Part shown: positions 1,951-55,470 of the stretch, one piece after another
How the letters are laid out: every line of letters begins with the position of its first letter
Numbering within the stretch: the stretch's first letter is position 1
DNA from: Gordius sp. MW1
Lineage: Eukaryota > Nematomorpha > Gordioida > Gordea > Gordiidae
DNA: 64,000 nucleotides
Assembly (NCBI GenBank): GCA_964036665.1
Contig: OZ038533.1
Span: forward strand, 2,094,001-2,158,000
Direction of reading: 5' to 3'
Translations under genes and position numbers: made by a program
The notes under the pieces: model-generated
The model's database searches: none
What the model saw: the letters and a program-made list of their open reading frames with translations, nothing else
Told to the model about the DNA's origin: nothing

Positions 1951-4390
1951 ATGAATGATTCAACGGATCAAAGTAATGCTGGGCATCACGAGAGAATCGC
2001 GGAGTTTATATCACAAGCACTTTGGTGCAATGGTAAAGTCAAATGTGCGGACGTTATAATATCCCTACCTTGTGGTCAATTTCCAGCCCATAAGCTAGTG
2101 ATCGGGGCGCATAGTAGAATTTTTAGCGACATTTATTTGAAAGAACCGGATTTATCGTTTTATGACCTGAGAAGTCCTCAGTACAAATACATAACTACTA
2201 AGGCCTTTAACCAAATCCTCAAATATATGTATACAGGAAACAGAGATTTTCTAGGATGTGATGGTCAAGAAATATCTAAAATCATTTACGATTTTTCCAT
2301 TCTATGCCTGTTGACGAAAGAAAATGAGGCCGAACAATATGAACCATTGGATTTGAAACCTCAGCTGCGCGAAATAGCTAGGCCCAGAGATTTATTTCAA
2401 AGCTCTATTCCAATGTGCGTTAAGCCCGTAGCTAATAATTTTAATTCGCCCTGTTGTGGTCCGCCTCAAGGGTTTAAACCTTCCATGGCGCCCAATAGCC
2501 AACTTCAAATGTAAAATTATTTCCAATTTTTAATGCATATATCATAAGCCCTAACAACTAGGAACTAATATTTATAACTTCAAAATCATTAACAGATTTA
2601 TCCAGAGATGTTAAATGCGTTTTCAGTCTAATAGTCCTTGTCCTAAAGTTATCGCAATAATTAAATTAGCTGTTAGGGCTTACAGTCAATCCTATTCCTC
2701 GGACGAGTCTTTAACACTTTATAGTTCCAACAATTTTTGAAATTATTACAGTTATTTTTGTAACCACAAAATATATGTTTATTTAGATGTCAAACGTGTT
2801 CGGCACCTTTCGACGCAGTTAGTAATAGATTTGAATCAATAAAAATCAGTCCATCCATTTTGTCACCGGCTATTGGTCCGTCCACTGTGTTGTCCCAAAA
2901 TCAGAGATATAACCCTTGTCAACAGCCTCAGCCCAATTTCATTCAAGCCCGCCCCGTCCCTACTCAACAAGTTATGCCTGTGATGATGCCACCCTCTTAT
3001 AACTATAATCGCCTTTCTGCTAAACCGATACCTCAATATTCCATCATGGAAGCGCCAAAAGCTAATATGGGACAGTATCCAGTAAGTCAAAATATCATGG
3101 CACCACCACCCTTCCAAGTGACACCCCATAGACTAGGTGCGTTCAAATATTCCGTTCAAACGAATTACACTGAAAGTCCTATCGTCATTCCACCTCCACC
3201 TTTACCTATGCCTCCACAACCAAAGGTTACTTTTTGGTTTTATTTTTAAAATTCATTTAAATATTAAGAAATATTTATGCAACGTAAGATAAATATTGCA
3301 TCATTAGTTTTGTCATTGTGTAAATATTTTAAATGTTTCGAGGTACACTATAGGAATGTTTTATTTTAGGGTCTTGCTTTAGCTACTATACTATTAGTTC
3401 ATCGCAATTAATATAAATCAACTTAAAATTTGACTTTTATACCAATTTTTCGACAAATATTACGTCATTTTCATAAAATAGATATGTTGCTCTCCGATCT
3501 TACCTGCTCTTCCAATGTCTAATCAACCTGCGTCTGGTATGTTTTTAAAAAGCCCTGTCAACATTCCAATACAAGGTAATTATAATAATAATTCAACTTA
3601 TAAAACATAATAAACTATCAGAATTTAATTAATTATATCAAAATTATTTATGAAGTTGATTGACCGACCGCCATGTATAAAAACTTAACTTCTATACAAT
3701 TAAGTGCTATATGAAAAGACATACAAATTCAGTCTCAAGGGCGTAGTCAAGATTGGAACGAGGGGGGGGCACTTATGATTTAGTAAAGGGCAAAATGACA
3801 TTTTCTGGAAATTTAATCCATAATTATATAAAAATTTAAAAAATTTATGGATTTGCCTTCACCTGACTATGCCCATGTTCAGTCTTATAATTAGACGACA
3901 AATTTATGGCGTTATAACTACATTATAAATTTGTTTGATTAAATACCTCTATTTATATTATGGAATATACTACATAGTTGTGGATAAAAAGATGATGTCT
4001 CCAAACATTCAGCAATCACAACCCCAACCCCAATTCCAACGACAACCTGCTGCGTTTAATCAAGCCAAACCTGTCAAAGACGGACCAGTTAAACTGGTCG
4101 ATAAAAGACTCTATCAGTATTTGAGCACTGAACGGTTCTTGAACTTATCACTGCGTGAAGTAATTCTAGTGTTAGAAGATGATTCGCTAGCTTGTGAAAA
4201 TGAGGTTGAAGCATTCATAGCTGCCTGGCGTTGGATTTATCACGATAGATGGAATAGATGGTCTAACATTAGGGATTTAATGGTTTGCATCCGATTTCCA
4301 CTCATGACCGTTAGACAACTGCTAATGGTGGGCAAAGAGATGGAATACATGCCAGAAGTTCATGATTTAATACTAAACGCAAGCTGGTAA
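1951..4390 (+). CDS. BTB-BACK domain protein without Kelch repeats (4 exons, 501 aa)
   Basis: Exons 1951-2510, 2787-3225, 3482-3575 and 3978-4390 join in frame through GT-AG sites. The single-ORF reading stops at 2514, inside the first donor site. Residues about 25-110 are a BTB/POZ domain, with the ADVIISLPCGQFPAHKLVI stretch and a YMYTG helix end. The middle third (about 190-400) is Pro/Gln-rich and probably disordered. Residues about 405-480 match a BACK domain (FLNLSLREVILVLEDDSL, WRWIYHD). BTB-BACK proteins usually dimerise and recruit Cullin-3, with C-terminal Kelch repeats binding substrate; here the protein ends right after BACK. A small repeat sits in intron 3. The start is the first ATG of the long exon. 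Family is firm; partners are unknown. Confidence 0.87.
3737..3877 (+). repeat. GGCGTAGCC-ended small repeat, copy 2
   Basis: Lies in intron 3 of the BTB-BACK gene. Starts AAGGGCGTAGTCAAG with a G-run and ends CTGACTATGCCCATG, so the termini are imperfect inverted repeats. Confidence 0.65.
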
Positions 4391-5459: not shown

Positions 5460-8099
5460 ATGGATATGGACAAAATGTTTTATACCATTCCAAAACCACG
5501 AATTTTTTATGGACTCAAAAAAGTTGATCCTTTTTCAATATATTCATACCAACCTGACCAAAGAACAAGTAAAACTTACTGTTAATTTTGGAAATTATAA
5601 GGGATAAAACATTCAGATAAAACATTCACAATAGGTTGAATATTTTATTAATGATGCATAAAATTTATTTAAAAATTGTTTTAAAAATACTCGCATAAAT
5701 ATATTGAATTAGTGAGCAGACATAGAGTCATTAATGGCATTAGTAAAGAATTTTACAATTTTCGAAGTGATTTTCTGTTTAATTTAAAAACATTCTTTGA
5801 GGTCGTATTTGATTGCAAGGAGGATAAGTTTTGATCTTTGTTTATGTAATTGTTACCCTTGGTTCCTTAAAATTGTTAGATTTAGCTAAATAAAATTTTA
5901 AAAAAATTAAATGAAATAATATCTAAATTTATTGAAATTTTTTCCTTAAGTTCCGCCATTAGTTGATTGGAGAAAATTTGAAACTCAAAGAATACCTATA
6001 GCAGCTACCTTGATAGGTAATGACGATGAAAGTGTTATTGAGGATATAATGTCAAATATGAAAAAAAATATTGACAAACAGAAACCTGAAGTAACTAAAT
6101 TTAAACTCAAAAATAAATAAAATTAATTTCCTTTTTTCTATTTAAACTAAATTTGAACATAAAATGGATTTATTTATATCTAGGACTGTATTCAACGAGC
6201 TTATGAAACTTACACCGAAATTGTAAAGGGGAAATCTTATTACGAAGTTAGATTTTAACAACATTAACTTTTTATTTAATTTATTAATTGATTTAATCAA
6301 TAAACTTTTCCATTTTAAAATCATAAAAATAAATTTTTGAGTTGAAATAAGTATTTAAGATTGATTAGATAAGAACTAATGTTGAATCAATATGGGCCAA
6401 TTATGTTGAATCTTGTTTAGTTTTAATTTTTATTAACTTGTCCAAAATATGTTTCTCAAAACCAAATTTATCAACAATTAAGTTTGTTAACCATAGTTAA
6501 AGTGTTATTAAAATCTAAAAATAAAATATTTAAAATAAAATTAAAGTAAATATAAAATAATTACAAAAAATATTCTATTATATCAGAAATCAAATCCACT
6601 GAGTATAGAAGATGCCTTGGAACAATTAAAAGCGAGCGTCAATGATTTGAAAAAATTGTCAAAGCGCCTCGACACTGATACCAGATCTTCAATGTCCCGA
6701 TTGAGAACAAAGCCGAAAAAAAATTCTAAAGAAGTAAAAAATTATTTTATTTTATATAAAAATATAATAATTTATATTATTTTAAAAACTAAATTTAGAA
6801 GTTAGATGGTACGGGTGATTACAGAAAATACATAAGCCCCTTAAAATCTATTGAGGAAGAATCGACAGTTCCAGGTATATTAATATAATGTTTGATCTTA
6901 ATTTTCATTATTATCCAATATCGGGCAAATGGGGAAATTTTCAAATTTTTGACCTAAACTCTATTTAAAAAATATAGGATAAATTTGCGATCTAAATTAG
7001 TTTCTACAATTTAAGTTTGTTTTGACGACTTTCTTCCATCTTGATCGGTAAGTGCCATGTATTGATTAATCTCTTTTGTTTTCATAACTTTGTCCACGTG
7101 CTTTTTCCACGTGACACGGGGTCGTCCTCTTCCTCTCTTCCCCGGTACCTCCGTGTCGAATACTTTTTGATTTAGGTCATTCGTGTCCCTTCTTAGTATA
7201 TGCTCATACGACCTTAGCCGATTTTCGTTAATCATGTCCGCCATAGATTGAATACCCATTTTTGTCATGAAAAAGTCATTCGCCATATGGCTCTATTAAA
7301 AAATAATTTTATATAACATGGCCTAAAATAAATTAATTTATTATATATAATATAATGCTTTAGTGATTCTCTACGCAATGTTAAAAATATCTGGTTATAT
7401 GAACGTAGTCAGGATTTAAATTAAGACAAAAGATTATTAATATCATTCTTTATATGAATATTGTTAAATTTTTGGAATCCTAGAAAAGCATACCTCGCCC
7501 TGACTAGGCCCATTATAAGTTCTATGATTATTTTAAACTAATTGGAATCAAATATTAAATTCAAAACATTATATATATATATATATGGACAAAATCTAGT
7601 TTTTTAAAATAGTTTAGATATTACAATTTTATAATGAAATAGGTAGGTTTTTTAGACGTGAACTAGAGACGATCTTATTGCAACATTTTTAAAAATTGTT
7701 ACCATGGGCGTAGCCAAGGAGGGGCGGAAAGGGACGGCTGCCCTTTCTAAATCTAATTTTTTTTGAAATTTAGTATAAGTATGACTAAAATCTCAAAAAA
7801 TGATCATTTTGACCCTCCCTAAATCATTATTGTCCCCCTCTAATTCAAATCATGGCTACGCCGATGATTGTTGCATTTATTAATTTATAAATACTCCTAA
7901 TACCATTATAATATTTTGCTAGATTCGGTGCTCAAGAATCCAGTTGTGAAGGTAAATGTTTAATTAATATCAAAATCTAACTTAGTTTATATATAATATT
8001 TATGATTTGCAGAAGTCTAGTAATAAAAACAAAGAAAAATCTTCCAAAAAAAAGAAAACTTCGAAAAGCAAAATTGGACAGGGTGATTTCGTCAATTAA
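5460..8099 (+). CDS. Uncharacterised 7-exon protein, about 207 aa
   Basis: I do not recognise this protein. Exons 5460-5568, 5951-6090, 6184-6222 (39 nt), 6587-6733, 6802-6874, 7923-7951 (29 nt) and 8013-8099 join through GT-AG sites with compatible phases to one 624-nt frame ending in TAA, which chance would rarely give. The N-terminus is hydrophilic and proline-containing (FYTIPKPRIFYGLKKVDPF), followed by VDWRKFETQRIPIAATLIG and an acidic stretch. Exon 4 looks helical or coiled-coil (LEQLKASVNDLKKLSKRLD). The last exon is a Lys/Ser tail (KSSNKNKEKSSKKKKTSKSK) that could be a nuclear or nucleolar signal. No signal peptide or membrane segment is seen. Intron 5 carries an RTE fragment and a small repeat. 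Exon 5 could use a neighbouring acceptor. Confidence 0.65.
7018..7290 (-). mobile_element. RTE-type LINE 3' fragment in intron 5
   Basis: The minus-strand frame 7286-7011 matches the C-terminal tail of the RTE polyprotein (RSYEHILRRDTND, GKRGRGRPRVTWKKHVDKV) and aligns with 55540-55780. It is a 5'-truncated insertion against the direction of the host gene. Confidence 0.85.
7703..7866 (+). repeat. GGCGTAGCC-ended small repeat, copy 4
   Basis: CATGGGCGTAGCCAAGG at the left and CATGGCTACGCCGATG at the right, in intron 5 of the uncharacterised gene. Confidence 0.75.
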
Positions 8100-9426: not shown

Positions 9427-9574
9427 CAATTAAAAGGCATTTTTTGTATATAAAATTATGTGTTTATAATATACTAACGTAATTAATATATATCATTATT
9501 ACCTCAAAACGCGTGAATAATATAAATTCAAGATAAGTTTAAGATAAATTATGCGCCATAAAATACTTGGAAAT

Positions 9575-9765
9575 AATTTGGCCTTCGATTAGGTTCAAAT
9601 ATAAAAACTTCCTATCTTAGTGGCTTAGTGAAATTTAACCCATAAAACACTTTTCCTGGTGTTATTGAGGAAATTCGGTATAAAAGTCAAGGAGAAACAT
9701 ATTTTAAAATTAAAAAAGAAATTACCAGGAAGAAAAATTAATTTTGTGTCAAGGATCTTAATTTA
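9575..9765 (+). promoter_or_regulatory. Invariant upstream block of micro-exon gene A
   Basis: 191 bp that match 20352-20542 with no difference or indel that I can see, whereas flanking DNA, introns and even coding exons of the two copies differ. It ends about 155 bp before the start codon. A conserved control region or recent gene conversion would explain it. Confidence 0.7.
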
Positions 9766-9820
9766 TTGATAAATATGAGATGACCTTACCCAATAATGGG
9801 TTAAGAGGCTGTTATAACCT

Positions 9821-9828
9821 TATAAAAA
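9821..9828 (+). promoter_or_regulatory. TATA box of micro-exon gene A
   Basis: TATAAAAA lies 93 bp before the ATG at 9921 and is conserved at the equivalent place in copy B (20613-20620), consistent with a transcript start near 9850. Confidence 0.6.
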
Positions 9829-9920
9829 CTAAAAGATTAACGTTAAATTTACACATCAAATCTTTAAAATACTTTTATTTAATTCCAAAGTTATAATAAC
9901 CCTCTAATCTTTTCAAAAAA

Positions 9921-11093
9921 ATGCTTTACGTTTATTCTTTGTTAATACTTTCCATCATTTGCATCGCCGAAAGTAAGCACATAAATTTTATGAACAAAAA
10001 TTTTTTTGTAAATATTTTACCATAATTTTTCTAATTTTAGGCGGATATATCCAACAAAGTATGATTTTGACTATTATTTCACCTTAAATAGTTTTACTTT
10101 GCATTTCAATTTTTTGATTTAAATTCTATATTTTAATTATAAATCACTATAATTAGAGTGGCAACCACCACCTAAAAAGTACCAACCGCCTCAGAAAAAA
10201 TATCAACCTCCCCCCAAAAAATATCAGCCACCCCAGAAAAAATATCAACCACCGCCCAAAAAATATCAGCCACCACAAAAGAAAAGTATAAATAACGAAT
10301 TTATTTTTATGATAAATATTATATTTTAACAGGATAATCTAAATGAAATATATTTTATTTTAAATAGTTGTTGTTGTTCAACAAAACTATGGTAAGTTTC
10401 ACCTATTTACGTTTTTAAAAAGAAAAAATTTACTTTTTAAATATTTTTTAATTTTTTTTGCTTTAATAGGCAAAAAGGGCAATTGGGGTATATTAATATA
10501 TTTTAATTGATAAGCTTTAAATATAATATTTACAGCAATTATATTACTTTAATATTTTGTAGGTTTCAAGAGAGAAGGTATTTATAGCTAACATTATTCT
10601 AAAATACATACCCTATAATATGTTCTATCTTTTCCTAGACCTTCCAGCATATCCTATCTACCCCGTAGTTGATTCAAAAGGTAATTCATATCATTGAAAA
10701 TACTATTATAAATGATAAATATATAAGCAAATATCAAATAAAAATAGGATCGACTTAAATTTTTATTTGTTTATTATTAAAGATAAGACATTAGTTGAAA
10801 GAGTTGAATGTTCCGAAGGAGTTTGCCCAACAGGTTATGAAGCCTACACCGACTTTGTTGGATGCGTTTGTAAGTTTAAAAAAAAATAATTTTTATTTCG
10901 TAATTTTGCTTTTCAAAAATGTAAATTTATATTTCCCCTAGGCCGAATCGACTTAAAGTCAAGGTCAGAGGTAAAGCTAAAAACAATTGAACTTTAATAA
11001 CAAACATCTTAGGATTCAAAAATTAAAAAGGACGAAGAATCAACCAATTTTAAAGAAGATGCAATAGAATTAAAAGAAGAGAAAAAAGCATAA
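9921..11093 (+). CDS. Secreted micro-exon protein, copy A (10 exons, 164 aa)
   Basis: Exons: 9921-9972, 10041-10058 (18 nt), 10157-10285 (129), 10368-10391 (24), 10470-10487 (18), 10563-10577 (15), 10639-10680 (42), 10783-10869 (87), 10942-10970, 11013-11093. All internal exons from 2 to 8 are phase 1-1 and multiples of three, so any can be skipped without a frameshift. The protein starts with a signal peptide (MLYVYSLLILSIICIAES). Exon 3 encodes a Pro/Lys/Tyr/Gln repeat (YQPPPKKYQPPQKK units). Exon 8 has two cysteines plus a third near its end, and exon 9 opens with a fourth: C-x4-C, then C-V-C. The tail is charged (Lys/Glu). A secreted structural, adhesive or effector protein is plausible; no family is recognised. 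The architecture resembles schistosome MEGs and aphid bicycle genes, but sequence homology to them is not claimed. Confidence 0.85.
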
Positions 11094-11821
11094 AAAACAT
11101 TATAAAATCCGTCCGTTGTCAAACTCCTATGTAGTATTAATATATATTATTAATATAAGGGTTGACCTAATAAAATATTATTACTACTAGCTTCGGTTGT
11201 TTACAAATTTTACATGAATAATGTGATATACATATAAGTAACCTATTTATATAATAATTTTAAAGTATGACAAATTTTTGGTTGCAAGTGATTAAAATTA
11301 TTTACATTGTTTTAAAAAATAAATGAAAATGGATTGTAAATGGAAATTTAATATTTTAAATCGATAGAAGACTCTTGTTAACAAAAGCTAATTAACAAGG
11401 CTTCCTTAATCAAAACGTAGTGGCAATGCAACTTATAACTAATAAAAACAGATAACCTGTTTCGCTTATAATTATTAAAGAATGGAATGACCCTATTGTT
11501 GTAATGAGCGGTAAAAAATTCAGATTTATCAGGTCACATAGGTCCATATTCAACAATCACATCATCATTAACGAGCTACACATATATGTGACTGTAGATT
11601 ACTATATTTATTAATTAGCCAAATAAGATATCATTTAAAGTTGTAAATAACAATAACTCCCTTCTGAAAAAAAACTAGCAAATTGTTAGTATTTAAGCCT
11701 ACTAGTGATTGTAAACTCTTTTGCTCTTATTATGTTGAACACTATTTTGAATAACATTCCCCCTTCCCTATTATCAAAATACCTCTACCCCTACCCTCTT
11801 TGCTGTAGAATTTAAGATGTC
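11094..11821. other. 3' flank of micro-exon gene A
   Basis: AT-rich non-coding DNA alignable with 21898-22538 of copy B. No gene seen. Confidence 0.6.
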
Positions 11822-11826
11822 AAATG

Positions 11827-11919
11827 TGTAGTAATTATATTGTCATGTATTGTAACGCATATTATACATACTTCATGTTATTAAAACATAACAAATGGCT
11901 TAGTTATTAACACTTAACA
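11827..11919 (+). repeat. 5' LTR of the Gypsy element
   Basis: 93 bp, TGT...ACA. Just after it, TGGTAAGAGGATCC is a possible primer-binding site, but I cannot assign a tRNA. Confidence 0.85.
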
Positions 11920-12339
11920 AATGGTAAGAGGATCCAAATTAAATTCCAATAATGACAAGGTAAAACATCAAACCAGATATAAATAGTTTAGCCGACTTAT
12001 CAAAAATTATTTTAAATGCATATACATACAGAGGATGTGGATATTGAGGATTACATGAAAAATAGAAATTTATGATAAAGGTTAAAGGTATAAATACTTT
12101 AAATGATTTGTTAAAACTAGAGTTGCTAACTTGATTCAACTCCAAACGTGAGCACGCACACGGTTGCCTAATATGCGCGTTAACACAATATGTGCTCGCT
12201 GTTCGGTGCACTAGGCAGAACAGTAGTATATAAAAATGCTCGAGGGTCGAGCAGAAACTCGAGCTTAGCAATTTAACAACTCTAGTTAAAACAAATATAT
12301 AAAAATCTTTTACTTGCATATTTTGGAATTAAAAATGTT

Positions 12340-15300
12340 AAGGAGATTAAAAATTCCTTACAAAATCCCGAGATGGGGCATAGTGGGATGAATTAATTAA
12401 AGCCTGCCTAGCCTTATTTAAGCCAATGGAGACAGTATTTACGTCCAGGTCAAAGCTAATTCAAATGAAACGGTTAGAAGGAGAATCAATAATGGTATTT
12501 GCTCAAAAATTGAAATAATTGGCTAGAATATCCATCTTTAAAGGTAATAAAGACGAAAGGCTCAGAGACCAATTTATCGTTGGCTGTCAATTAACAAAGT
12601 TGGATATAAAATTACGTATGCATTACCCACTACAATGAATCCAGATGGTACAAGTATAATTTTCAAACAAGTCGTACTTAGCAATGGCTTGGAAATGGCC
12701 GAATAGGAGGTAAACCATGGTATTAACAAAGTACCAAACAACTACAAGGGATGGGAAGGTCACACTTATATGAAAATTGTCCAGCAAAGCCACATGTTAT
12801 AAATGCAAGAAATCAGGACATTTTGCTGGGCCTTTTTAAAGGTAAACCTATTCATAATACCCAGGGTGGAGATGGATATGGAAGTTCAGATGACAATCTA
12901 ATCAATCAAGCTAGATGAGTAGGGTTCAATAGAGAAGCTATAATGGCACGTTGGAATGTTATTCCATATTGTTTTGAATTGTGACACGGGGGCGCAATGA
13001 GTCATTAACAAGAAGATATGGAACCAAGTGGGCAATCCAAACTTAAAACGACTAACAATTTCACCGTGTATGGTCAAAAGACGCTAGATGTTAATGGAGA
13101 AGTGACTTGGAAGTTGGAGAAAAGGTTAAGGATTGACATGCAATTGTCACTAATAGCATGGACGTACCGTTGTTTGGGTTACCTTGGATTTTAAAATTTG
13201 ATTTGAGGATTCAGAAATGTGTAAGGATTAACAAAGTCTGCAAAGAGGCCATCACAATTCGTGGAAAGTTAAATAATTTTATTAAAGAATTTGCAGAGTT
13301 TTTGATAACAGTCATGGAGAAATCAATAGCAATCCAGTTCATCTAAATGTCAAAAGAGATGCACCAGGTACAGTGTTCCCTTTCCCTTAAGAAAACCGAT
13401 TGAAATGGAGCTTGAAAGGTTGGTTGCGGCTAACATAATTGAAAAGGTGGACCCTACTAAAACAGGGATTGAATGGGCTACACCAACTCTAAATGTGAGA
13501 CAAAACAATGGTTGTATTAGAATTTGTGGAGATTTCAAAAATACTTTAAATCCTTTCTTAATAAAGGACTACCATATATTGCCTACCTTTGAAGATATTG
13601 CTTTGAAATTGGTTAATAGACAAAGATTTACGACAATTGATCTTAAGGACGCATATCTTCAAATGAAGAATGACGAAAATTCCCAAAAATATCTTATCAT
13701 AAACACACTTGTGGGTAATTTTCAGTATAAACGAATGTCGTTTGGGGTGGCTTCGCCACCCATAATATTCCAAAGATATATGGATAATTTGCTAATTGAT
13801 TGTAAAAAGACCGGAGGATATTTAGATGATGTAACAATAACGGGTGATGATGATCACGAACATTTACGCAATTTGACCGCCGTCTTAAGAAAATTTGAGA
13901 CTGTGGGATTAAGAGCTAATCTGGACAAAGTTAAATTTTTAGAAGAATCAGTACAGTTCTTAAGATATAGATAGATGAATATGGAATACTCCCGACGCAG
14001 ATAAAGTAAAAGCAATTAGAGAAGCGCCAACGCCAAAACACATTCATGAATTACGAGCATTTCCGTAATTTTTAAATTATCATGAAAAATTTATAGCGAG
14101 TCTTCATGGTTTGTGTTCACCTTTACATCGCTTAACTAGTTCAAAATGTCACTGTACTTATCTTTGTTAAAACAAGCAGTATTTGATAAAATAAAAAGAA
14201 TATTGTCACGAGAAGATATTCTGACAACTTATTCACATAACCTATCAATTATTTGAGAATGTGATGCTTCAAATAAATGGTTAGGAATAGCTTTATTACA
14301 CAAACTTTCTAATGATTACGAAAAACCCAATGCATATGCCTCAAAAACACTTTTGGATGCCGAAAAAATTATGCGGCCATTGACAGGGAGGCAAGAGCCT
14401 TAATATTTAGAGTCTAAGATTTCATCCTTACATATTGGGAAGGAAGTTTATTTTGCGTACCGATCACAAGGCATTAGAAAGGTTGTTTGGGGAATTCATA
14501 ACATATCCCACATCTAACAATCTATTAATTAGATGGGCGTGGAAATTGTCACCCCACGGTTATAATTTAGAATACAAATCGGGTAAAGATAATCAAATGG
14601 CCGATGCGTTACTAAAATTATCAGTACCAGAAACAGGAACATCCAACGACGAAGATGATGAAAATGTTGCGTGTTTAAGATCCATAACTTTAAAAAATTT
14701 AAAGATTACGGAACAATGTTAGCTAATGAAACTCGTAAAAATTTAACTCTTAAAAAACTTTTAGTATAACTTGAACAAGGTTGGAGTGTAAACAGGAACG
14801 CTTTCACAATGAATTAATTCCGTAATAAAATGAGAAAGAGGAATTATCGATGGACGAGGATATTTTACAATGGTAAGGACGTATCGTTGGTCTTCTTCGC
14901 ATAACCATGCTGAAATATTACACAAGGAACATCCGGGCAAATATGCAATGAAATTCATATGTCGATATTATGTATGGTGGCCCAACATGGATCATGATAT
15001 CGACACTTTCGTTAAACAATGTGTTAGCTGCCAACGTCATCGGGTGAATATTGCTGAAGTACCCTTATATTATAATAGAAATTAGTTAATAAATTGCGGG
15101 TTTACGATAATAATCCAAAGATAATAATAACAGGGATATATATAGTTCAAATTAGTCTCTAATTAAAATTGCCTATGGATGGCGCTAATTAGAGGATACT
15201 TTTAATTTAATTGCGGCACTCCTGAAAGAAGTTATTATTATCTTCTTACCCTTATATTCTTGGAATGTTGATACTCATTGGGAAAGGTTACACATTGATT

Positions 15301-15340
15301 GGCTGGCATGATTGATGGTCGTAACTGGTTGGTTGGGGTG
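12340..15340 (+). pseudogene. Gypsy gag-pol pseudogene
   Basis: A Gag-like stretch near 12420-12620 is followed by a zinc knuckle CYKCKKSGHFAG (about 12793) lacking the final Cys, then the protease motif DTGA (about 12980). RT is the open frame 13405-13974, with the active site YLDD and FGVASPP. RNase H is 14435-14650 (RTDHKALERLFG, DNQMADALLKLS). The integrase HHCC finger is at 14870-15060 (HNHAE, CVSCQRH). The integrase core starts (WERLHIDWLA) but breaks off at about 15310. Several in-frame stops separate these pieces. Confidence 0.88.
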
Positions 15341-15872
15341 GATACGCTGGGTAGACGAAACCGAACCCTGTTGGATTGGACTAGACCAAACCGTAGAACT
15401 AATCTAGAGACCGGTAGAGAAGAGCAAGATTATCATGACGATACGGTTTAAGTCCAAAAGAATTTTCAAATAACCAGCCAGTGTGGGTAAAAAACGAAAT
15501 TAAACCTGGTTGGAGGGGGCACGGTATTACAACGAAATGGAATATAGTCATAGATAGTGGAAAGTCTAGGAAAACAAATAAGGAAACACGCAGACCAACT
15601 GAGAAAATGAATTACCAAATTAAATACAGATGAGAGATTAATTTTACCAAATAGAATATACAAGTCCAAGACCAAAATGTGGAAGAAGAGGACGAAAAAA
15701 CCGTTAAAAATAGTACAGAAAAATCAAAAGAAGTTGATAGAGAGTTCATCGTCGCCGGATGTGAATATACCAGGAGAGATTGAAACACCGCCGAAAAGAG
15801 AAAGCAGTTTACGCAGGGCGCTACTTAGATTATTCGAGTAAATGTAATATTTTTCAACGAATGGGGGACAAA

Positions 15873-15964
15873 TGTAGTAATATATTGTCATGTATAGTAG
15901 CGCATACTATAAATACATGCACAAATCTTATTTGGAATAAAAACTTAGTTATCAACACATAACA
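15873..15964 (+). repeat. 3' LTR of the Gypsy element
   Basis: 92 bp, same ends as the 5' LTR but clearly diverged. Preceded by a purine stretch (AATGGGGGA), a likely polypurine tract. Confidence 0.85.
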
Positions 15965-15969
15965 AAATG

Positions 15970-16290
15970 ACCCACAAGTATATAGTAGATTATTCCTGCT
16001 TCCGGGACTATAAAAGGATTCTTTCAAACGTTTCTGAAAAAAGCCTAGCTGGTTCTTTTATGGAACGGCTAATGCAAATCATATAGTTTTTTCCAGTTTT
16101 AAATAAAATTCTAAACCTGGTCCACCTCGAATATATTTAGTTCAATTACAAATATATATTTATATGCGGATTGTAGTCATAAAGTCGAGAGTTGATATCA
16201 GTTTAAAATGATATTTGATTTTATATTTGCTTTTTTGGCCACAACCTTTTTCAATTAAAATTCTGAATCCGCTCCAAAATAACGACAATT
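15970..16290 (+). repeat. Duplicated upstream flank of LYAR without the gene
   Basis: Matches 22544-22860, including CTTTTTTGGCCACAAC, and loses similarity just before the LYAR start codon. It may be an orphan promoter. Confidence 0.8.
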
Positions 16291-16360
16291 GATAATAACG
16301 CCAACTGTAACAAATTCGAAATAAAATCTAAAATTTAAATAGCAAAAAATATACATGGAC

Positions 16361-16480
16361 CATGGGCGTAGCCAGGGGGGGGGGGGAGAAACCCTAAAAA
16401 TTAAAAAATATCTGTTTTGCCCCCCCCCCACTAAATAAACTTTAAAAAATTCCCCCCCCCCTAATTTAAAACCTGGCTAC
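16361..16480 (+). repeat. GGCGTAGCC-ended small repeat, copy 5
   Basis: CATGGGCGTAGCCAGGG at the left and AAAACCTGGCTACC at the right, with G- and C-runs between. Confidence 0.75.
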
Positions 16481-16584
16481 CAAAATAATATGAACATATG
16501 TTAAAACAAATATATGTGTATCATTAAATATAAAGAATAATATATAACAATTTATACATGTTTAATCTATATGTATTAAGTAAA

Positions 16585-17195
16585 GTCTATGTATGTGTGT
16601 ATGTATGTGGATAAGGGCTAAATTCTGAAACTACCGGCCCGATTCGTGCGAAAATTTAGCCATAGATGCCCAGGGCGGCCAGGGGTAAAATAGTTTTTTC
16701 AGAATCCTAAAATTCCTTTTAGTTTTAAAAATATCGGACATTTCCCGGCCAGTTTCATTTATAACATCATACACAATAATGACGTCATACATATTAGATA
16801 TTTAAAAGTATAATAAAAATGTTATGTATGTAAAAGCTTAATTCTGAAACTACCGGCCCGATTCGCGCGAAAATTTAGCCGTAGATGCCCAGGGCGGCCA
16901 GGGGTAAAATAGCTTTTTCAGAATCCTAAAATTCATTTTAGTTTCAAAAATATCGGACATTACGTTTTAAAAAAGGGCTAAACTCTGAAACTACCGGCCC
17001 GATTCGCGCTAAAATTTAGACATAGATGCCCAGGGCAGCCAGGGGTAAAATGGCTTTTTCAGAATCCTAAAATTCCTTTTAGTTTTAAAAATATCGGACA
17101 ATAATGACGTCATACATACAAGGCTAAAGTTTTCTCGAATTTTATTATAAAGAAAATTGTATTTTTAGCAAAACAACGTTTGCCGAATCAGCTAT
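16585..17195 (+). mobile_element. Non-autonomous Helitron relic
   Basis: Begins near a TATG-rich stretch and ends ACAACGTTTGCCGAATCAGC, very like the end of the Helitron at 50257 (ACAACGTTTGCCGGGTCAAC). It holds three ~130-bp direct repeats and no coding sequence. Confidence 0.6.
16612..17102 (+). repeat. Three ~130-bp direct repeats
   Basis: Units at about 16612-16741, 16832-16962 and 16971-17100 share CTGAAACTACCGGCCCGATT, the CCCAGGGCGGCCAGGGG core and AAAATATCGGACA. Unit 1 is separated from unit 2 by about 90 bp. Confidence 0.85.
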
Positions 17196-17824
17196 ATATT
17201 ATATTAAGCACTAATTATATAAATTAATGAAATACATGTTAGGTTGGTATAGAGTAGTATTTAAATATACAATATATAAGTATTATATAAAGGTTTATAT
17301 TAATAAACAAATAGATATCATTCGATTGCCTCGTTAAATCATAGACTAGATAAACTGCTCATCAACGCACAAAATGTGACCCTTTTTCCACCATTTTAAT
17401 GATAACATGGTAAAGTAGTGATTATATAATAGATATTAGTAACTTTTCCAAATTAAATAATATTAAAAAGGTTAAAAAAAAAATACTGAATTGGTTAGAT
17501 ATCAAAAACAGCATTCTAAAATAAATATCATTTGCACAATACATATAAACTAAAATGTAAAAACTGTGATGAAAGAGCGTGATTTGTATTTTGAATAATA
17601 TTTATTTATTGACGTTCTTTCAAATTTATAAACTTGTGAGGAAGGTAAATTGACTGTTATAGCGCAAAATGACATGATTGAAATACACCAGTTTTGGAGA
17701 AAAATTTGACACACAATTTGCCATATGGAACATATGGCATGAGCAGTCTATCTAGTATATGCTTATAACTTTAGATTCATGTTTACAAGTTGTATAATTG
17801 AATATTTAAAACGTTAATTAATAA
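17196..17824. other. AT-rich spacer, no gene seen
   Basis: No coding frame or recognisable element between the Helitron relic and the hairpin-capped element. Confidence 0.5.
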
Positions 17825-19512
17825 CCAGGGGCTTCGCCCCTGGTGGGAGGAAAGAAAAAAAGGGGGGAGAGGGGGGGGGGGACAGGAGGGAAGGGGCGAG
17901 AGTCCGACTTGAAGTTCGTTTTTTCGTTTTGGTACATTTGCCTATTTTAGGGTAGTGTTTTTTACGAAACTCATCTATACTCCGTATAAACGTAGCACAT
18001 TTGCTATGCAATTTATGGGCGATTAAGGTGGTAAGAGGCGAGAATGCCTATGGGGGGGCAAGGGTCAATCAGGAAGCCAGATAATACACGTACAATGTTA
18101 TAATTGTTTTTTAAATATACTATTTTCATAAAGTATATATGTTTTATATCAGTTTTTACAAAAATTTCAATTTTTAAATATTTGTTGCAAAAAAAAATAA
18201 GTTATCATTTTGCATTTTATATTTTATTGTGAGATAGGTTTTCTTTCATTCATTCCTATTTATCGAATTCGAAATTAATCAAAATGGCGAAGGGAACGCA
18301 AATAGAGGGTATGACCTTGGAAAAGCCAATAGTCATCCTTCCAAAACGTGTAACTTTCAATTTAGAGTTTTTTGATACTGTATAAAATTTAAACAATTTG
18401 GGGCGACGAATTATGACTATAGACTCTTTTCAAACATGCGCATATGTATGGTAAACAAGATAAAAAAAAAATTTCCAATCAGACTTTGGCCATAATCATT
18501 TTTTCCACAGCCAAATAGCCTATAATTATAATATAGAGAAAAAAATGCGATATACACTTTAGCCAGTGGTCATTTTTCAAATGGTTAGCAGACAGCCAAA
18601 TAACTAGCCTATAATTATAATTTAGAGAAAAAAATTTGATTTTAATCTCACTTTGGCCAGCGGTCATTTTTTTTTATTTGTCAGTAGCCAGAAAACGGCC
18701 AAATAGCCTATATTAATAATATAGAAAAAAAAATTGATACACTTTGGCCAATTGTCATTTTTTTCCATTGGTCAGCAGCCAGGAGACGGTCAAAAAGGAT
18801 CTAAATTCATAAGAGACAAAAAAACGAAAAAAAAAATTTCGATTCACACTTTGGCCAATGTTCACATTTTCTATTGGTTAGCAGCCAGCGGACGGCCAAA
18901 AAGCCAATATTATTAATGTTAGTAACAAGAACAATATATTATTATTAATTAAAAAAAAAAATTTTGCCCTCGCCGAGTTTCGAACCCACATCCGTGGAGG
19001 CATAGGCCTTTGTAGGGGGGGGGACACAGGGAGCCATATCAGTAGAGGCATAGGCCCTTGTAGGGTAGGGCACAGGGTAATTATCAATGTTAACCAAATA
19101 TAGCAATTTGAAAAACGAAAGAAAATTTCGATTTACATTTTGGCCAATGTTCATTCTTTTATTGGTCAGTAGCCAGGAGACGGTCAAAAAGCCATATTAT
19201 CAATGGTATTAGCAGAACAATGTATTAATTATTAATTTAAAATTTTTTTGCCCTCGTCGAGATTCGAACCCAGATCATTAAAAGCATAGGCCTTTGTAGG
19301 GGGGGGGGCACAGGAACCCATATCAGTAGAGGCATAGGCCCTTGTAGGGGGGGCAAAGGGTAATTATCAATGTTCACCAAATAACAAATAATAAATTAAT
19401 TTAAAAAAATTGCCCTCCCCGATATTCGAACCCACATCTGTAGATACAAGTTGGACAACGGACGGACAACGGACGGACAACGAAAAGCGAGCCCATGAAT
19501 TGCATAGCATTT
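17825..19512 (+). mobile_element. Hairpin-capped repeat element H1
   Basis: Opens with the perfect stem-loop CCAGGGGCTTCGCCCCTGG, then a purine-rich tract, then GCTATGCAATTTATGGGCGA. The body contains repeats built from TTTGGCCA...GGTCA...GCAGCCAG and three TTCGAACCCA-containing units. It ends with GGACAACGGACGGACAAC and GAGCCCATGAATTGCATAGC. The same plan recurs at 36082-37989 and 53356-55105. No coding capacity. Terminal hairpins suggest a rolling-circle (Helitron/Helentron-like) element; that is inference. Confidence 0.65.
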
Positions 19513-19676
19513 AACACCCTACTTATTCAAACCCATTTATAGTTTGAATTATTACTATAAATTAGAGTTATGTTGAGATTTTATAAAATTATACATACGT
19601 CTCTTCAAAACGTTTCTTTAAAGAACTGTTAGGTTAATTAAATTCCTAATTTTTGCTTACAATCATATAATAAGAT

Positions 19677-20250
19677 CAGAGGTCAGATTTGTTAAAATTT
19701 TCTCCCCAAACCCGGCCCGGTCCAATTTAATAACAAAACTGCCCACCCGAGCCCATCCGAACTCTTCCAAGTGTCCGCCCGGACATGCCCGTTATTATAG
19801 CTGCCCGAACTGCCCGGCCTTAAATGATGTATTTTAAAATTGTTCGAGATAGGTATATTTTGTAAAAAATTTAAGTTAATTTCCATTTTTTTATAAGATA
19901 GGCTTAACAACAATTATACACTCGAATAAAAAAGTGACCAAATAATACTCGAAAACAATCTAATCCATTATTTAAAAAAATCAATGAGCCCAAATTACCC
20001 GAATCTTGCTATAGTGCCCGGCCCGACCCGCATCGGCCCGACCCACAGGATTAAATATAGACAAGTTGGCAAAACAAATTTAAATATAAAGGTAATCAGT
20101 CAGGCTAAAAATCAAAAATGGAATTTGAACTCGGACGAGGTTGAAAAAATTAAGGCTAACCAGTGGTCATAAGGTGTCTATATGCAAGCAAAATAAAAGT
20201 CTTTTACAGAAGCATAATCCACAGCCATTAAAAAGCCCTATATTTTTCCA
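19677..20250 (+). repeat. Truncated hAT-type end with GGGCC-rich repeats (copy B)
   Basis: Starts CAGAGGTCAGATTTGTTA, identical in its first 11 bases to the terminal repeat at 42480. Duplicated partner of 8566-9100. Confidence 0.65.
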
Positions 20251-20279
20251 CAGCAAAGATTGAAAAATTATAAGTTGGA

Positions 20280-20335
20280 CAGGACAGACCGATAGGATGG
20301 ACAACCATAAACGAGCTTATAAATTGCATATAAAT
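20280..20335 (+). repeat. 3' end relic of the hairpin-capped element (copy B)
   Basis: GGATGGACAACC followed by CTTATAAATTGCATA with a degraded stem. Partner of 9380-9426. Confidence 0.5.
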
Positions 20336-20351
20336 TAGGCCATAAAATATA

Positions 20352-20542
20352 AATTTGGCCTTCGATTAGGTTCAAATATAAAAACTTCCTATCTTAGTGG
20401 CTTAGTGAAATTTAACCCATAAAACACTTTTCCTGGTGTTATTGAGGAAATTCGGTATAAAAGTCAAGGAGAAACATATTTTAAAATTAAAAAAGAAATT
20501 ACCAGGAAGAAAAATTAATTTTGTGTCAAGGATCTTAATTTA
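20352..20542 (+). promoter_or_regulatory. Invariant upstream block of micro-exon gene B
   Basis: 191 bp equal by eye to 9575-9765. It lies about 175 bp before the ATG. Confidence 0.7.
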
Positions 20543-20612
20543 ATTAGATAATTGATATTGATAAATTTGAAATGACCTTACCCAATAATGGGTTAAGAGG
20601 CTGTTATAACCT

Positions 20613-20620
20613 TATAAAAA
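20613..20620 (+). promoter_or_regulatory. TATA box of micro-exon gene B
   Basis: TATAAAAA, 97 bp before the ATG, within a conserved core-promoter stretch. Confidence 0.6.
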
Positions 20621-20716
20621 CTAAAAAATTAACGTTAAATTTACACATCAAATCTTTAAAATACTTTTATTTAATATTGAAGTTATTATAAGAACCCTCT
20701 AATTTTTCCAAGAAGA

Positions 20717-21897
20717 ATGCTTTACGTTTATTCTTTGTTAATACTTTCCATCATTTGCATCGCTGAAAGTAAGCACATAAAATTTATGAACAAAAAAAAT
20801 TTTCAAAATATTTTTCACTCATAATTTTTCTAATTTTAGGTGGATATATTCAACAAAGTATGATTATGACTATTAATTCCTCTTAAAAAGTTTTACTTTG
20901 CATTTCAATTTTCTGATTTAAATTCTATATTTTAATTATAAATCATTATAATTAGAGTGGCAACCACCACCTAAAAAGTACCAACCGCCCCAGAAAAAAT
21001 ATCAACCTCCCCCCAAAAAATATCAGCCACCCCAGAAAAAATATATACCACCTCCCAAGAAATACCAACCACCACAAAAGAAAAGTGAATAAAATAAAAT
21101 ACTTTAATGATAAATATTATATTTTAACAATATAATCTAATTGAAATATATTTTATTTTAAATAGTTGTTGTTGTTCAACAAAACTATGGTAAGTAAAAG
21201 TATTACCTATTTACGTTTTTAATAAGAAAAAATTTACTTTTTAAATATTTTTTAATTTTTTTGCTTTAATAGGCAAAAAGGGCAATTGGGGTAAATTTAG
21301 TATAATTTATTTATTCAGCTTTATTTATTATTTGTACAACAATTATATTACTTTAATATTTTACAGGCTTCAAGAGAGAAGGTATATATAGCTAACATTA
21401 TTTTAAAATATATACCATATATATTTTATTTTTTACCTAGACCTTCCCGCATATCCTATTTACCCCGTAGTTGATTCGAAAGGTATTTCATATCATTGAA
21501 ACTACTATTATAAGTGAAAAATTTATAAAGCAAATATCAAATGAAAATTTGATCTTCTTAAATTTTTATTTGTTTATTATTAAAGATAAGACATTAGTTG
21601 AAAGAGTTGAATGTTCCGAAGGAGTTTGCCCAGCAGGATATGAAGCCTACACCGACTTTGTTGGATGCGTTTGTAAGTTTTTGCAAAATATAATTTCATT
21701 TTCGTAATTTTGCTTTTCAAAAATTTAAATTCATATTTCGCCTAGGCCGAATCGACTTGAAGTCAAGGTCACAGGTAAAGCTAAAAACAATTAAACTTTA
21801 ATAATTATTATCTTAGGATTCAAAAATTGAAAATGAAGAAGAATCAACCAATTTAAAAGAAGAAGAAATAGAATTAAAAGAAGAGAAACAAGCATAA
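20717..21897 (+). CDS. Secreted micro-exon protein, copy B (10 exons, 164 aa)
   Basis: Paralogue of 9921-11093. Exons 20717-20768, 20840-20857, 20956-21084, 21166-21189, 21273-21290, 21367-21381, 21441-21482, 21586-21672, 21746-21774 and 21817-21897 have the same lengths as in copy A, so the 495-nt frame is kept in both. The signal peptide, the IVVVQQNY and GKKGNW micro-exon peptides and the four cysteines are identical. Changes are one Gln-to-Ile in the Pro/Lys repeat, Thr-to-Ala after the second Cys, Glu-to-Gln at the end of exon 9, and several changes in the acidic tail. Both copies look intact. Proximity to LYAR is positional only. Confidence 0.85.
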
Positions 21898-22862
21898 AAA
21901 ACATTTAAAAACCTCTGCTGTCAAATTCCTATATGTACTATTTATATATATTATTAATATTAAGGGTTAACTTAATAAAATATTATCTTCGGCAGTTCTT
22001 ACATGAATAATGTGACATGCATTAAAATAACTATTTATATAATGATTTTAAAGTGAAGATTTTTTGGTTGCAATTGTTTCAAAAAATATTGGTATATTTA
22101 ATGTAACTGAAAATTTTATATCTTAAATCGATAGACGACTTTTGTTATAAAAGCTTTAACTAGGCTTCCTTAATAAAAAATAATAGCGATGCAACTTATA
22201 ATAAGAAAAACAAATTAAAACAAATAACATGTATTGCTTGTAATTATTAATGAATGGCAATGTTTGATTGTTGGAAAAATTCAGTATATCCAATCACATA
22301 AGTGTATATTCACAACCACATCATCATTAAGCTAGAAATATAAGCGACTGTAGATTCCTATATTATTATTTAGCCAAATAAGATATCACTTAAAGTTAAC
22401 GATTACTCCCTCCTGGAAAAACTAGCAATTTGTTAGTATTTAAGCCTACTCTTTTGCTAGATTATGTCGAATAATATTTTGAATAACACTCCTCGGTTAT
22501 CAAAATACTACCCACTTTGATATTGCATTTTAAATGTCAAATGACTCACATGTATATAGTAGTTTATTTATGCTTCATAAAAGGATTTCCAACGTTTCCA
22601 AAAACATCTTAGCTGGTTGTTATATGGAACGGCTAACATATAGTTTTTGCCAATTGTAAATAAAATTTTAACACCAACCCACTTTACCTACATATTAAAA
22701 TGCAGCCAATATCGAATCTTAAATGTTTTAGTTCAATTACAAACATATACCTAGAAACGGATTGCAATCATAACGTGACGAGTTGATATCAGTTTAAAAA
22801 TGATATTTCGAGTTACATTTGCTTTTTTGGCCACAACTATATTAAATTTTAATTTCATTTCC

Positions 22863-34600: not shown

Positions 34601-37600
34601 GCGAGAGAGGGTCGTATAATTGAAAAAATATTTTACGAACCTCCCATATTGAAGGTGGGTTGTTGTTGAGGGGTCTGTTGTTGGAAGGCGTTGCCGAAGG
34701 TATCGCCATTACCATAATTCCCGGGCGTGATTTGTTTGAATTGATGGTTCAACTAGGCACGAGGAAAAACAAAAAAATTGTGAATTAGTCAATACTATTT
34801 AAAATAATATATTGATAAATTATCTTTTATAAAAACTTTTTTTATTTGTTATTAATTTTTGTGTAATTATGTAATTGATTGAAACGTTTCTTACGTTGAG
34901 ATTTTGCAGGGCCTCCCACGGATTCTTGGCACCTAGAAAAATTTGGTAAAAAATTATAAAACATAATAGTAATTAATATGGAAAATGTCGAATTTAATAT
35001 ATTGTACAATTAGGAAATACAGCTTACTTCCGTAATAGAAAACTTTGGTTTCCGACCTATGTATGTAGTATGGAATAATACGGTATATAAATTAACACAA
35101 ATATTTTGCGGGAATAAAAAGTAAAAAGGAGATACAGTACTTGTTGGTGATGCAGGAGAGTTTTTTATCGGCAGGGCTTGTTTGATTCTATTGGGATGCG
35201 AAACAACACGGTTGCATTAATTTGATATGAATCTATGTATGTCTTTACTACAAGTTAGTGTTGTAAAAAGACATGGGTTTGTTTGCTCAGGGGCCATTCC
35301 AGGACAAATCAAAACGGTTTCGACCGACCATTTCAGATTAGGATAATTTTTGGTGAGGGTGTAGGTCTCATTTATTAGATTAATTTCTGAAAGTTTTAGC
35401 CATTTTAGGCCAATACTTTTTAAGTTATGGACGTTTAAAGGTCCAAAATCACGTTCGGGAGCGTTTTATGGATTTTACTATTTTTGTCATATTTTTGAAA
35501 GTAATTGCGTTATTCACTCAGATTTTGGTGCATTTTGTTTTCAAAAAAATTCTCTATCGAAATAGTTTAACCAAAAACCTCAAACTTTTGCGGTTAATTT
35601 TTTGTGGTACAATTAGTGAAAAATCATAAAAACATATTTCTCCGGTATATGAAATCACCAATTTCACAATGTGAATTCCTTTATGACCCATTATCATATT
35701 TCAATCATAAAAAATTTGGGCGCGGCTACGAGATGGTCAAAAATTCAAAAAATTGCATTTTCAACAAAAATATTTATAGATGGCGGTATAATCAATTATC
35801 ACAAGAACATATTATGGTGTTTATTTTTTATCAAGTTGCAAATTTATAAAGAATATATGGTAAATAAATAATATTGGAATAAAAATAAACTTAAATTTGA
35901 TTTTTTTTCTGCGCAATTGGCAATTATCCGAGTTTGAAATTAGATTTTGAATTTTAACTTAAATGATATAGGGGTATGCTAAAATTAATATGAGGTTGAA
36001 AAAATAAATAAATACTAATATGATGGCAAAATTGCTCATATATTTTTATTTTTATACTGATAATCCATGCTAAAAATAAACTCGGGCCTTCGGCCCTCGT
36101 GGGAAGGGGGAGAAGGGAAGGGAAGAGGGGAAGGGAAGGGGGGACGACTCATCTGTACTTCGTATAAATGTATCATATTTGCTATGCAATTTATGGGCGA
36201 GAAAGGTGGGAAGGGGCGAGAATGCCTATAGGGGGGTATTAAATGCCTAATGATTAATTAATTATTTAACAAATTTTCCATTATAGGCAAAATGTAATAA
36301 AGGCAAAATGTAATATAGGCCAAGGGTTAGGGTTAGATTTAGTGTTTGCATCTAGTTGCGTATTACATTAGTTTTTATGGCCTTTAGTGATTATGGGTCT
36401 AACAAACATTATATTATAAAACAACACAATGTTAAGAATTTGCAGAATTGTTGGGAGAAATTTTTTGTTGAATTTGAACAATTTTTAATTAAAAAAATCA
36501 AAATTTGGCCAATGGTCACTTTTTCTCTATTGGTCAGTACCAACAGATACTCTATAAGTCAATGATAGCCAAAAAAACGGAAAAAAAGTTTTGATGCTCA
36601 CTTTGGCCAATGGTCATTTTATTTCATTGGTCAGCAGCCAGCACACGGTAAAATGGATATAAATTCATAAGAGTAAAAAAAACGAAAAAAAAATTTTCGA
36701 ATCACATTTTGGCCAATGGTCATTTTTTTCCATTGGTCAGCAGCCAGGACACGGTAAAAGTGGATATAAATTCATAATAGTAAAAAAAAACGAAAAAAAA
36801 AGTTTTCGAATCACATTTTGGCCAATGGTCATTTTATTCCATTAGTCAGCAGCCAGCGGACGGCCAAAAAGTCATAATAGCAATGGTAGGAACAGGAACA
36901 ATCATAATAGTCAAAAAAAACGAAAAAAATAATCTCGATTCACATTTTGGCCAATGGTCATTTTTTCCATCGGTCAGGAGCCAGCGGACGGCCAAAAAGT
37001 CATAATAGCAATGGTAGTAACAAGAACAATCATAATAGTCAAAAAAAACGAAAAAATAAACTCGGATTCACATTCCAATGGTCATTTTTTTCATTGGTCA
37101 GCAGCCAACGGACGGCCAAAAAGTCTTATTATCAATGATAGTAACAAGAACAATCATAAGAGTCAAAAAAAACTCCGGGATTCTAACCCAAAAACTAGTT
37201 AAATTGCATAGCAATTAAAAGTAAACAACTTTTATTTATGTTTATTATATAACATTGGTCAGCAGCCAGCGGACGGCCAAAAAGTCATAATAGCAATGGT
37301 AGAAACAGGAATAATCATAATAGTCAAAAAAAACGAAAAAAATAATTTCGATTCACATTTTGGCCAATGGTCATTTTTTTCATTGGTCAGCAGCCAGCGG
37401 ACGGCCATAAATTCTTATTATCAATGATAGTAACAAGAACAATCATAAGAGTCAAAAAAACTCCGGGATTCTAACCCCAAAACTAGTTAAATTGCACAGC
37501 AATTAAAAAGTAAACAACTTTTATTTATGTTTATTATATAACTAGTTAAATTGCATAGCATTAAAAGTAAACAACTTTTATCTATGTTTATTATATAACA

Positions 37601-55105: not shown

Positions 55106-55470
55106 ATTTTTAATAAACTTGTTTGTCCCTACCCGACTTGAGAGGCAAGTTGTTTTTATAGCGTTTTCACAGTGAAGGCAAAGTTCAAAGTGTATTTTAT
55201 TTAAATTAATTACTTTTAACCCATTTGGTCCGTTTATAATTATTAAAATTTCCAGAACCGTTAACGCCCGTCTGAGGTTTTTGAAATTGTCTTGCACGCT
55301 CAAGCCTTAAGATTTTTAGATATCATATCCCATCATACGAGCTAGCGGACTGGGCTACACTTCCAGGTCTTTAATCAAATTACACACCCCACCCTTGAAA
55401 GGTTATAGACCCATGATATTGCAAGCTAAATTAAATTAGCGATATTCATGCTCGGCCACGGGTGGTGCAA
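55106..55470. other. Spacer, no gene seen
   Basis: No recognisable feature up to the LINE target duplication. Confidence 0.5.

Follow-up and report, generated by a model that had tools for sequence, protein, structure and literature searches.

Gene models

We analysed a 64,000-nucleotide stretch of the Gordius sp. MW1 genome (contig OZ038533.1, positions 2,094,001 to 2,158,000; hereafter the window), which carries two closely related genes on the forward strand, gene A (9921-11093) and gene B (20717-21897). Both encode a predicted secreted protein with a proline-, lysine-, and tyrosine-rich repeat. An initial annotation of the window had described a duplicated micro-exon gene with ten exons per paralogue, and we rebuilt both models from the sequence at these positions. 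The exons of each gene measure 52, 18, 129, 24, 18, 15, 42, 87, 29, and 81 nucleotides (nt), which gives a coding sequence of 495 nt and a protein of 164 amino acids (aa). All 18 introns of the pair, which are 42-103 nt long, start with GT and end with AG, and the two proteins are 94% identical. Every one of exons 2-8 has a length divisible by three and phase 1-1 boundaries, in A and B alike, as the initial annotation had stated; seven symmetric exons out of seven corresponds to a p of about 5e-4 if exon lengths are random in phase. Exon 9 (29 nt) is asymmetric and leads from phase 1 to phase 0. The internal exons of 15-42 nt number six (exons 2, 4, 5, 6, 7, and 9) rather than the five first counted, and five of the six are symmetric.

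In gene A, exon 1 (9921..9972) encodes a predicted signal peptide, judged from the gene model and hydropathy. It is followed by the seven phase 1-1 exons: exon 2 (10041..10058), exon 3 (10157..10285) with six PP[PQ]KK[YI] heptads, exon 4 (10368..10391), exon 5 (10470..10487), exon 6 (10563..10577) with a dibasic KR, exon 7 (10639..10680) with LPAYPIYPVVDSK, and exon 8 (10783..10869) with a cysteine module. The asymmetric exon 9 (10942..10970) and exon 10 (11013..11093), which encodes a charged, mostly acidic tail and the stop codon, complete the model. Gene B repeats this layout with its predicted signal peptide in exon 1 (20717..20768), then exon 2 (20840..20857), the heptad repeat in exon 3 (20956..21084), exons 4 (21166..21189), 5 (21273..21290), 6 (21367..21381), and 7 (21441..21482), the cysteine module in exon 8 (21586..21672), exon 9 (21746..21774), and the acidic tail and stop in exon 10 (21817..21897).

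Additional copies and upstream conservation

Two further copies, C and D, lie on a second contig of the 211.8-Mb, 12-contig assembly (C6, at 22.42 and 18.81 Mb, respectively; the window is on C7). Copy C is intact, with 174 aa, ten exons in the same phases as in A, and 66% protein identity to A; its exons 1 and 5-9 have exactly the lengths of those of A. In copy D the ten exons recur, but exon 1 has 57 nt instead of 52 nt, which destroys the frame, and exon 10 ends earlier. Exon 3 of C (123 nt) exceeds that of D (102 nt) by 21 nt, the size of one heptad unit. The introns of C and D are 49-91 nt long, and all seven cassette exons (2-8) are present in four of the four copies. Querying the assembly with the copy C protein and with the exon 7-8 piece of A returned the same four loci only; one paralogue search gave a single additional row at an E value of 2.0, which is chance level.

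The four copies also share upstream elements. A four-copy promoter alignment has in common the block ATGGGTTAA (9796..9804 in A, 20588..20596 in B), a TATA-box-like TATAAAA (9821..9827 and 20613..20619), which lies about 100 nt 5' of the ATG in A and would be part of the core promoter, and an ACACATC block 3' of the TATA box (9851..9857 and 20643..20649), which may mark the start-site region. AATAAA motifs at 11169..11174 and 21974..21979 are candidate poly(A) signals of A and B. All of these elements are on the forward strand, as are the two tandem duplication units that carry gene A (9533..11826) and gene B (20319..22543) and are 84% identical to each other. Over 300 bases upstream, A and B agree at 270 of 281 positions, with 38 gap positions, and a DNA query made of the A promoter and its exon 1 matched A and B only.

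Coding constraint

Exons of A and B are identical at 470 of 495 positions without a gap, and their introns at 597 of 673 positions with 18 gap positions. In micro-exons 2 and 4-7, the two genes differ at 6/39 third codon positions and at 0/78 other positions. A comparable pattern separates C from D, with differences at 8/79 third positions and 0/157 others in the equal-length exons 2 and 4-9; exons 1, 3, and 10, which are of unequal length and excluded from this count, are identical at 50/52, 95/102, and 83/96 aligned bases. Across the deeper split between A and C, the equal-length exons 1 and 5-9 differ at 17/81 first, 8/81 second, and 40/81 third positions. The concentration of micro-exon changes at third codon positions marks these exons as genuinely coding. 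The ratio of nonsynonymous (dN) to synonymous (dS) change is 0.18 for the whole coding sequence of A and B, and exons 5-9 of A and C give a dN of 0.11 and a dS of 2.5, which is near-saturated. These rates indicate that genes A, B, and C are under purifying selection.

That the genes might not be real, but chance open frames or pseudogenes, is hardly credible. The missing intact frame in exon 1 of copy D would suit such a reading; the third-position bias, the lack of exon indels between A and B, and the preservation of the layout in a diverged copy speak against it. The frame in D may have been lost very recently, be polymorphic, or reflect an error of assembly; exons 2 and 4-9 of D carry no first- or second-position change relative to C.

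Exon 10 departs from the remaining exons. Between A and B, it has accumulated seven nonsynonymous and no synonymous changes, against 4 and 14, respectively, in the rest of the gene (Fisher p 0.0007, for a comparison picked after the counts were seen).

Predicted protein and search for relatives

The product of exon 1 is hydrophobic (mean Kyte-Doolittle value 2.1-2.2 over residues 1-17) and is a putative signal peptide, which would make the protein a secreted one. The chain after residue 17 contains 12-13% proline, 14-18% lysine, and about 7.5% tyrosine. It includes heptads of the form xPP[PQ]KK[YI], of which A and B each have six and C has five, and this repeat has an isoelectric point of about 10.3. 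After the repeat follow, in order, the dibasic KR of exon 6, the conserved LPAYPIYPVVD of exon 7, the module with four cysteines of exon 8, and the charged tail of exon 10. These features agree with the initial description, a Pro/Lys/Tyr-repeat protein with predicted secretion.

Searching 5.8 billion proteins with single-protein and three-sequence queries yielded no relative at E values up to 1 among 840 and 4,240 candidates. The search requires shared words of five residues. The protein set includes entries from Gordionus (two EF-1alpha rows were among the matches), so the missing relatives carry some weight; how much is limited by the word-based search and by the frequent misannotation of small micro-exons, which has been shown for plants (PMC8831610). 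Best hits in Pfam (E 0.036, under the curated cut-off), NCBIfam (E 0.18), and PDB (E 0.25) were all at chance level; searched by itself, the exon 8 module likewise had no match among Pfam families. Pieces of the protein used as words had no occurrence in published papers, and a non-exhaustive literature survey found no work pairing micro-exons with Nematomorpha. The initial annotation had called the sequence unlike any known one, and the protein databases agree with it: the family appears to be an orphan in those searched.

Splicing of the micro-exons

In A, B, and C, each of the 128 possible subsets of exons 2-8 keeps the reading frame and introduces no new stop, so the predicted freedom to skip any subset holds as frame arithmetic. 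An intron left in the transcript, by comparison, would bring in a stop for 24 of the 27 introns of the three genes. Such arithmetic is what would be expected of a variant generator in the manner of schistosome micro-exon genes (MEGs), in which the hairworm skips micro-exons combinatorially and releases many secreted variants at the host interface; the hydrophobic start fits secretion, and the lineage is parasitic. Short introns, however, can be spliced by intron definition, a principle that the introns of 42-103 nt favour here, so the tiny exons can be joined without regulation. Between A and B, 11% of the aligned intron bases have changed, compared with 14% of synonymous sites (14/98.7; dS 0.157). 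As they diverge nearly like synonymous sites, little splicing control appears to be conserved beyond the splice sites. Every micro-exon has also been kept in all four copies under purifying selection, and three intact genes are all that we found. The family of secreted variants envisaged in the initial annotation is disfavoured on these grounds; we regard a MEG-like generator as unlikely, and the exons are probably not shuffled into variants.

Proposed role

The interpretation that we favour, at about even chances, is an orphan family encoding a predicted secreted, cross-linked structural or adhesive protein whose micro-exons are mostly constitutive. The basic KKY-PP heptads would form an extended, stiff, proline-rich chain, whose regularly spaced tyrosines and lysines would be cross-linked extracellularly. 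The exon 8 module, ECSEGVCPTGYEAYTDFVGCVC, could fold into a small disulphide knot, and the variable C-terminal tail would supply charge. The micro-exons would be joined by intron definition, for the most part constitutively, and the phase-1 layout would be a record of how the gene was assembled, not a device for making variants. Such a protein would most plausibly be used in secretions that harden once they have left the worm, as in the matrix of egg strings, the wall of larval cysts, or the cuticle; gordioids are described as producing egg strings, cysts, and larvae with a pseudointestine gland (PMC5523353).

Horsehair worms are parasites of arthropods that steer their insect hosts to water, and the protein might instead be an effector secreted as a single constitutive isoform that acts on the arthropod host, e.g., on behaviour or immunity. 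Orphan status, predicted secretion, the cysteine module, and the tandem duplication are compatible with this. Purifying selection and the small number of copies are more in keeping with structural material than with an arms-race effector, and they contrast with the raised nonsynonymous ratios reported for the bicycle genes of aphids (PMC9168663); the composition of the heptads likewise looks structural. An effector of this kind seems to us improbable.

Several observations weigh against a structural protein with mostly constitutive exons. The fast exon 10 could fit a host-interface protein, and it counts in favour of the MEG-like generator, as do the several donors adjoining micro-exons whose lack of a G at +5 would leave room for regulated splicing. 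Identity between A and B is highest in introns 2 and 4 (93% and 96%), above the intron mean; heterogeneity among the introns is weak (p 0.10), so it reveals no clear regulatory conservation. Finally, signal peptide, cross-linking, and matrix role are all inferred from composition alone.

Exon structure elsewhere in the genome

Micro-exons and uniform phase could be ordinary in this genome and uninformative about function, a possibility compatible with the structural interpretation and one that we rate as quite open, if somewhat short of even. Our genomic control consists of EF-1alpha, the BTB gene in the window, and one hand-modelled neighbour gene. EF-1alpha has six exons of 129-408 nt, no micro-exon, and introns of 36-66 nt that are all in phase 0, so that four of its four internal exons are symmetric, as an ordinary feature would have it. 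The hand model at 5951-8099 (+), which has no second copy to support it, contains exons of 39 and 29 nt and points the same way. In contrast, no EF-1alpha exon is shorter than 129 nt, and our model of the BTB gene (1951-4390, +), in which the open frame decided the choice of the last acceptor, combines phases 2, 0, and 1 and is free of micro-exons. The hairworm family, with five symmetric micro-exons and one asymmetric exon of 29 nt inside a 495-nt coding sequence, is much denser in them. Micro-exons are thus not universal here, and neither uniform phase nor single micro-exons are unique to the family; its unusual feature is the density of micro-exons in one short, predicted secreted protein.

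The gene at 1951-4390 (+) encodes a BTB-BACK protein with a proline-rich middle, for which Pfam BTB and BACK are above cut-off, and the putative gene at 5951-8099 (+) matched nothing above the Pfam cut-off. A search for the CAP family gave five matches.

Genome identity and other features of the window

Molecular data on hairworms are described as scarce (PMC10380579). The mitochondrial contig (C12, 14,798 bases) has the protein-gene order cox1-cox2-atp6-cox3-nad3-nad4l-nad4-nad5-nad2(-)-nad6-cytb ... nad1(-), with labels read by eye from translations and covering protein genes only. This is the gordioid order, with nad2 and nad1 on the opposite strand and nad6 and cytb together, which one source gives for Gordionus, Gordius, and Parachordodes and not for Chordodes (PMC10380579). 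We found 13 inverted-repeat pairs of at least 20 nt in one stretch of the mitochondrial contig and 27 in an overlapping stretch; the longest among the matches listed (the best 25 of 27 in the second stretch) is 108 nt and 100% complementary. Many of these repeats lie inside coding genes, some before cox1 or elsewhere; complementarity reaches 100% in many of them, and most of the long ones are perfect or nearly so. Long coding palindromes in mitochondria are exclusive to Nematomorpha according to PMC10380579; nematomorph palindromes are also described in PMC6649704, which places shorter ones in several other organisms.

Of ten contig ends inspected, six have TTAGGG arrays: C2 and C6 at either end, C7 on the right, and C8 on the left. 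No such array is present on the left of C7 or of the smaller contigs C9, C10, and C11. Telomere repeats are TTAGGC in nematodes and TTAGG in arthropods; as the hairworm repeat is unlike either, TTAGGG may be an ancestral telomere that hairworms have retained. Coding palindromes, mitochondrial gene order, and TTAGGG telomeres identify the genome as that of a gordioid hairworm, and nuclear EF-1alpha shares 92% identity with its counterpart in Gordionus sp. The source is thus neither a fluke nor an insect; an insect, to which AT-rich sequence with short introns had pointed, is rejected on account of the telomeres and the mitochondrion, and a bryozoan, considered for genome size and telomere, fell away with the inverted repeats in mitochondrial genes.

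Repeats occupy other parts of the window. Positions 36078-37865 and 53461-55109 are inverted copies about 16 kb apart that are 92-99% identical in colinear pieces, and this repeat-rich block consists of tandem units of roughly 105-130 nt. A second inverted pair, 19-1251 and 57713-58977 (89-94%), contains an endonuclease-like open reading frame and looks LINE/RTE-like by eye. Pieces that look Gypsy-like by eye lie at 13405-13974 (+) and 61523-61909 (-).

Comparison with known systems

The initial annotation had likened the design to schistosome MEGs and aphid bicycle genes; part of the layout is indeed shared, and the likeness is one of analogy, as the family belongs to neither group. With MEGs it has in common predicted secretion, a parasitic worm as bearer, short symmetric exons that can be dropped in frame, and the lack of homologues found outside the lineage. 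A signal peptide with a secreted or membrane-anchored product is a further mark of MEGs, and the hydrophobic N-terminus is a candidate for such a peptide here. MEGs, however, are reported to have about 80% of their coding sequence in symmetric exons of 6-36 bp (PMC5825161), whereas the share is 15% both in A (75 of 495 nt) and in C (78 of 525 nt). MEG variants have also been confirmed by proteomics (PMC5825161), whereas here they would follow from frame arithmetic, and the bearer belongs to a different phylum, a hairworm and not a schistosome. The family is not a schistosome MEG.

Like bicycle genes, the family combines many small exons of one phase with an N-terminal signal sequence (predicted here) in a cysteine-containing orphan. 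Bicycle genes are described as having internal exons nearly all in phase 2, about 17 exons per gene, and CYC motifs in many members, with 476 genes in one aphid and some divergent homologues without CYC (PMC9168663). The hairworm genes differ in their phase 1, ten exons, three intact copies, and purifying selection, and neither CYC nor C-x(0-2)-YC is present in A, B, or C. Bicycle genes belong to scale insects, phylloxerans, and aphids and show enrichment in the salivary glands; given the hairworm mitochondrion and TTAGGG telomeres, that lineage is excluded. The family is not a bicycle gene, and a MEG- or bicycle-like mode of working could apply only if splice variants were shown. That the family represents a third, independently evolved micro-exon system, with three intact genes whose seven phase-1 exons are spliced in as many as 128 ways each, so that a range of secreted Pro/Lys/Tyr proteins meets the host or the water, strikes us as distinctly improbable.

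Two further classes of extracellular protein offer parallels. Exon shuffling has built extracellular proteins from phase 1-1 modules, and here, too, a predicted signal-peptide exon ends in phase 1 and is followed by symmetric 1-1 exons; the classical shuffled modules are whole domains, whereas several modules of the hairworm protein comprise just 5-8 residues. Mussel foot proteins and plant extensins consist of basic, tandem, proline-rich units with regular lysine and tyrosine suited to cross-linking. The hairworm protein shares the proline-rich tandem units, the regular lysine and tyrosine, and the basic character, but differs in its PP[PQ]KKY unit, its short run of five or six units, its cysteine module, its charged tail, and the lack of any homologue found.

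Implications

These genes define a precise and testable family from a phylum known for host steering, and they are of a kind that automatic annotation may overlook. They also raise the question of whether the micro-exon genes of parasites are generators of variants or simply arise, as nothing out of the ordinary, where introns are tiny.

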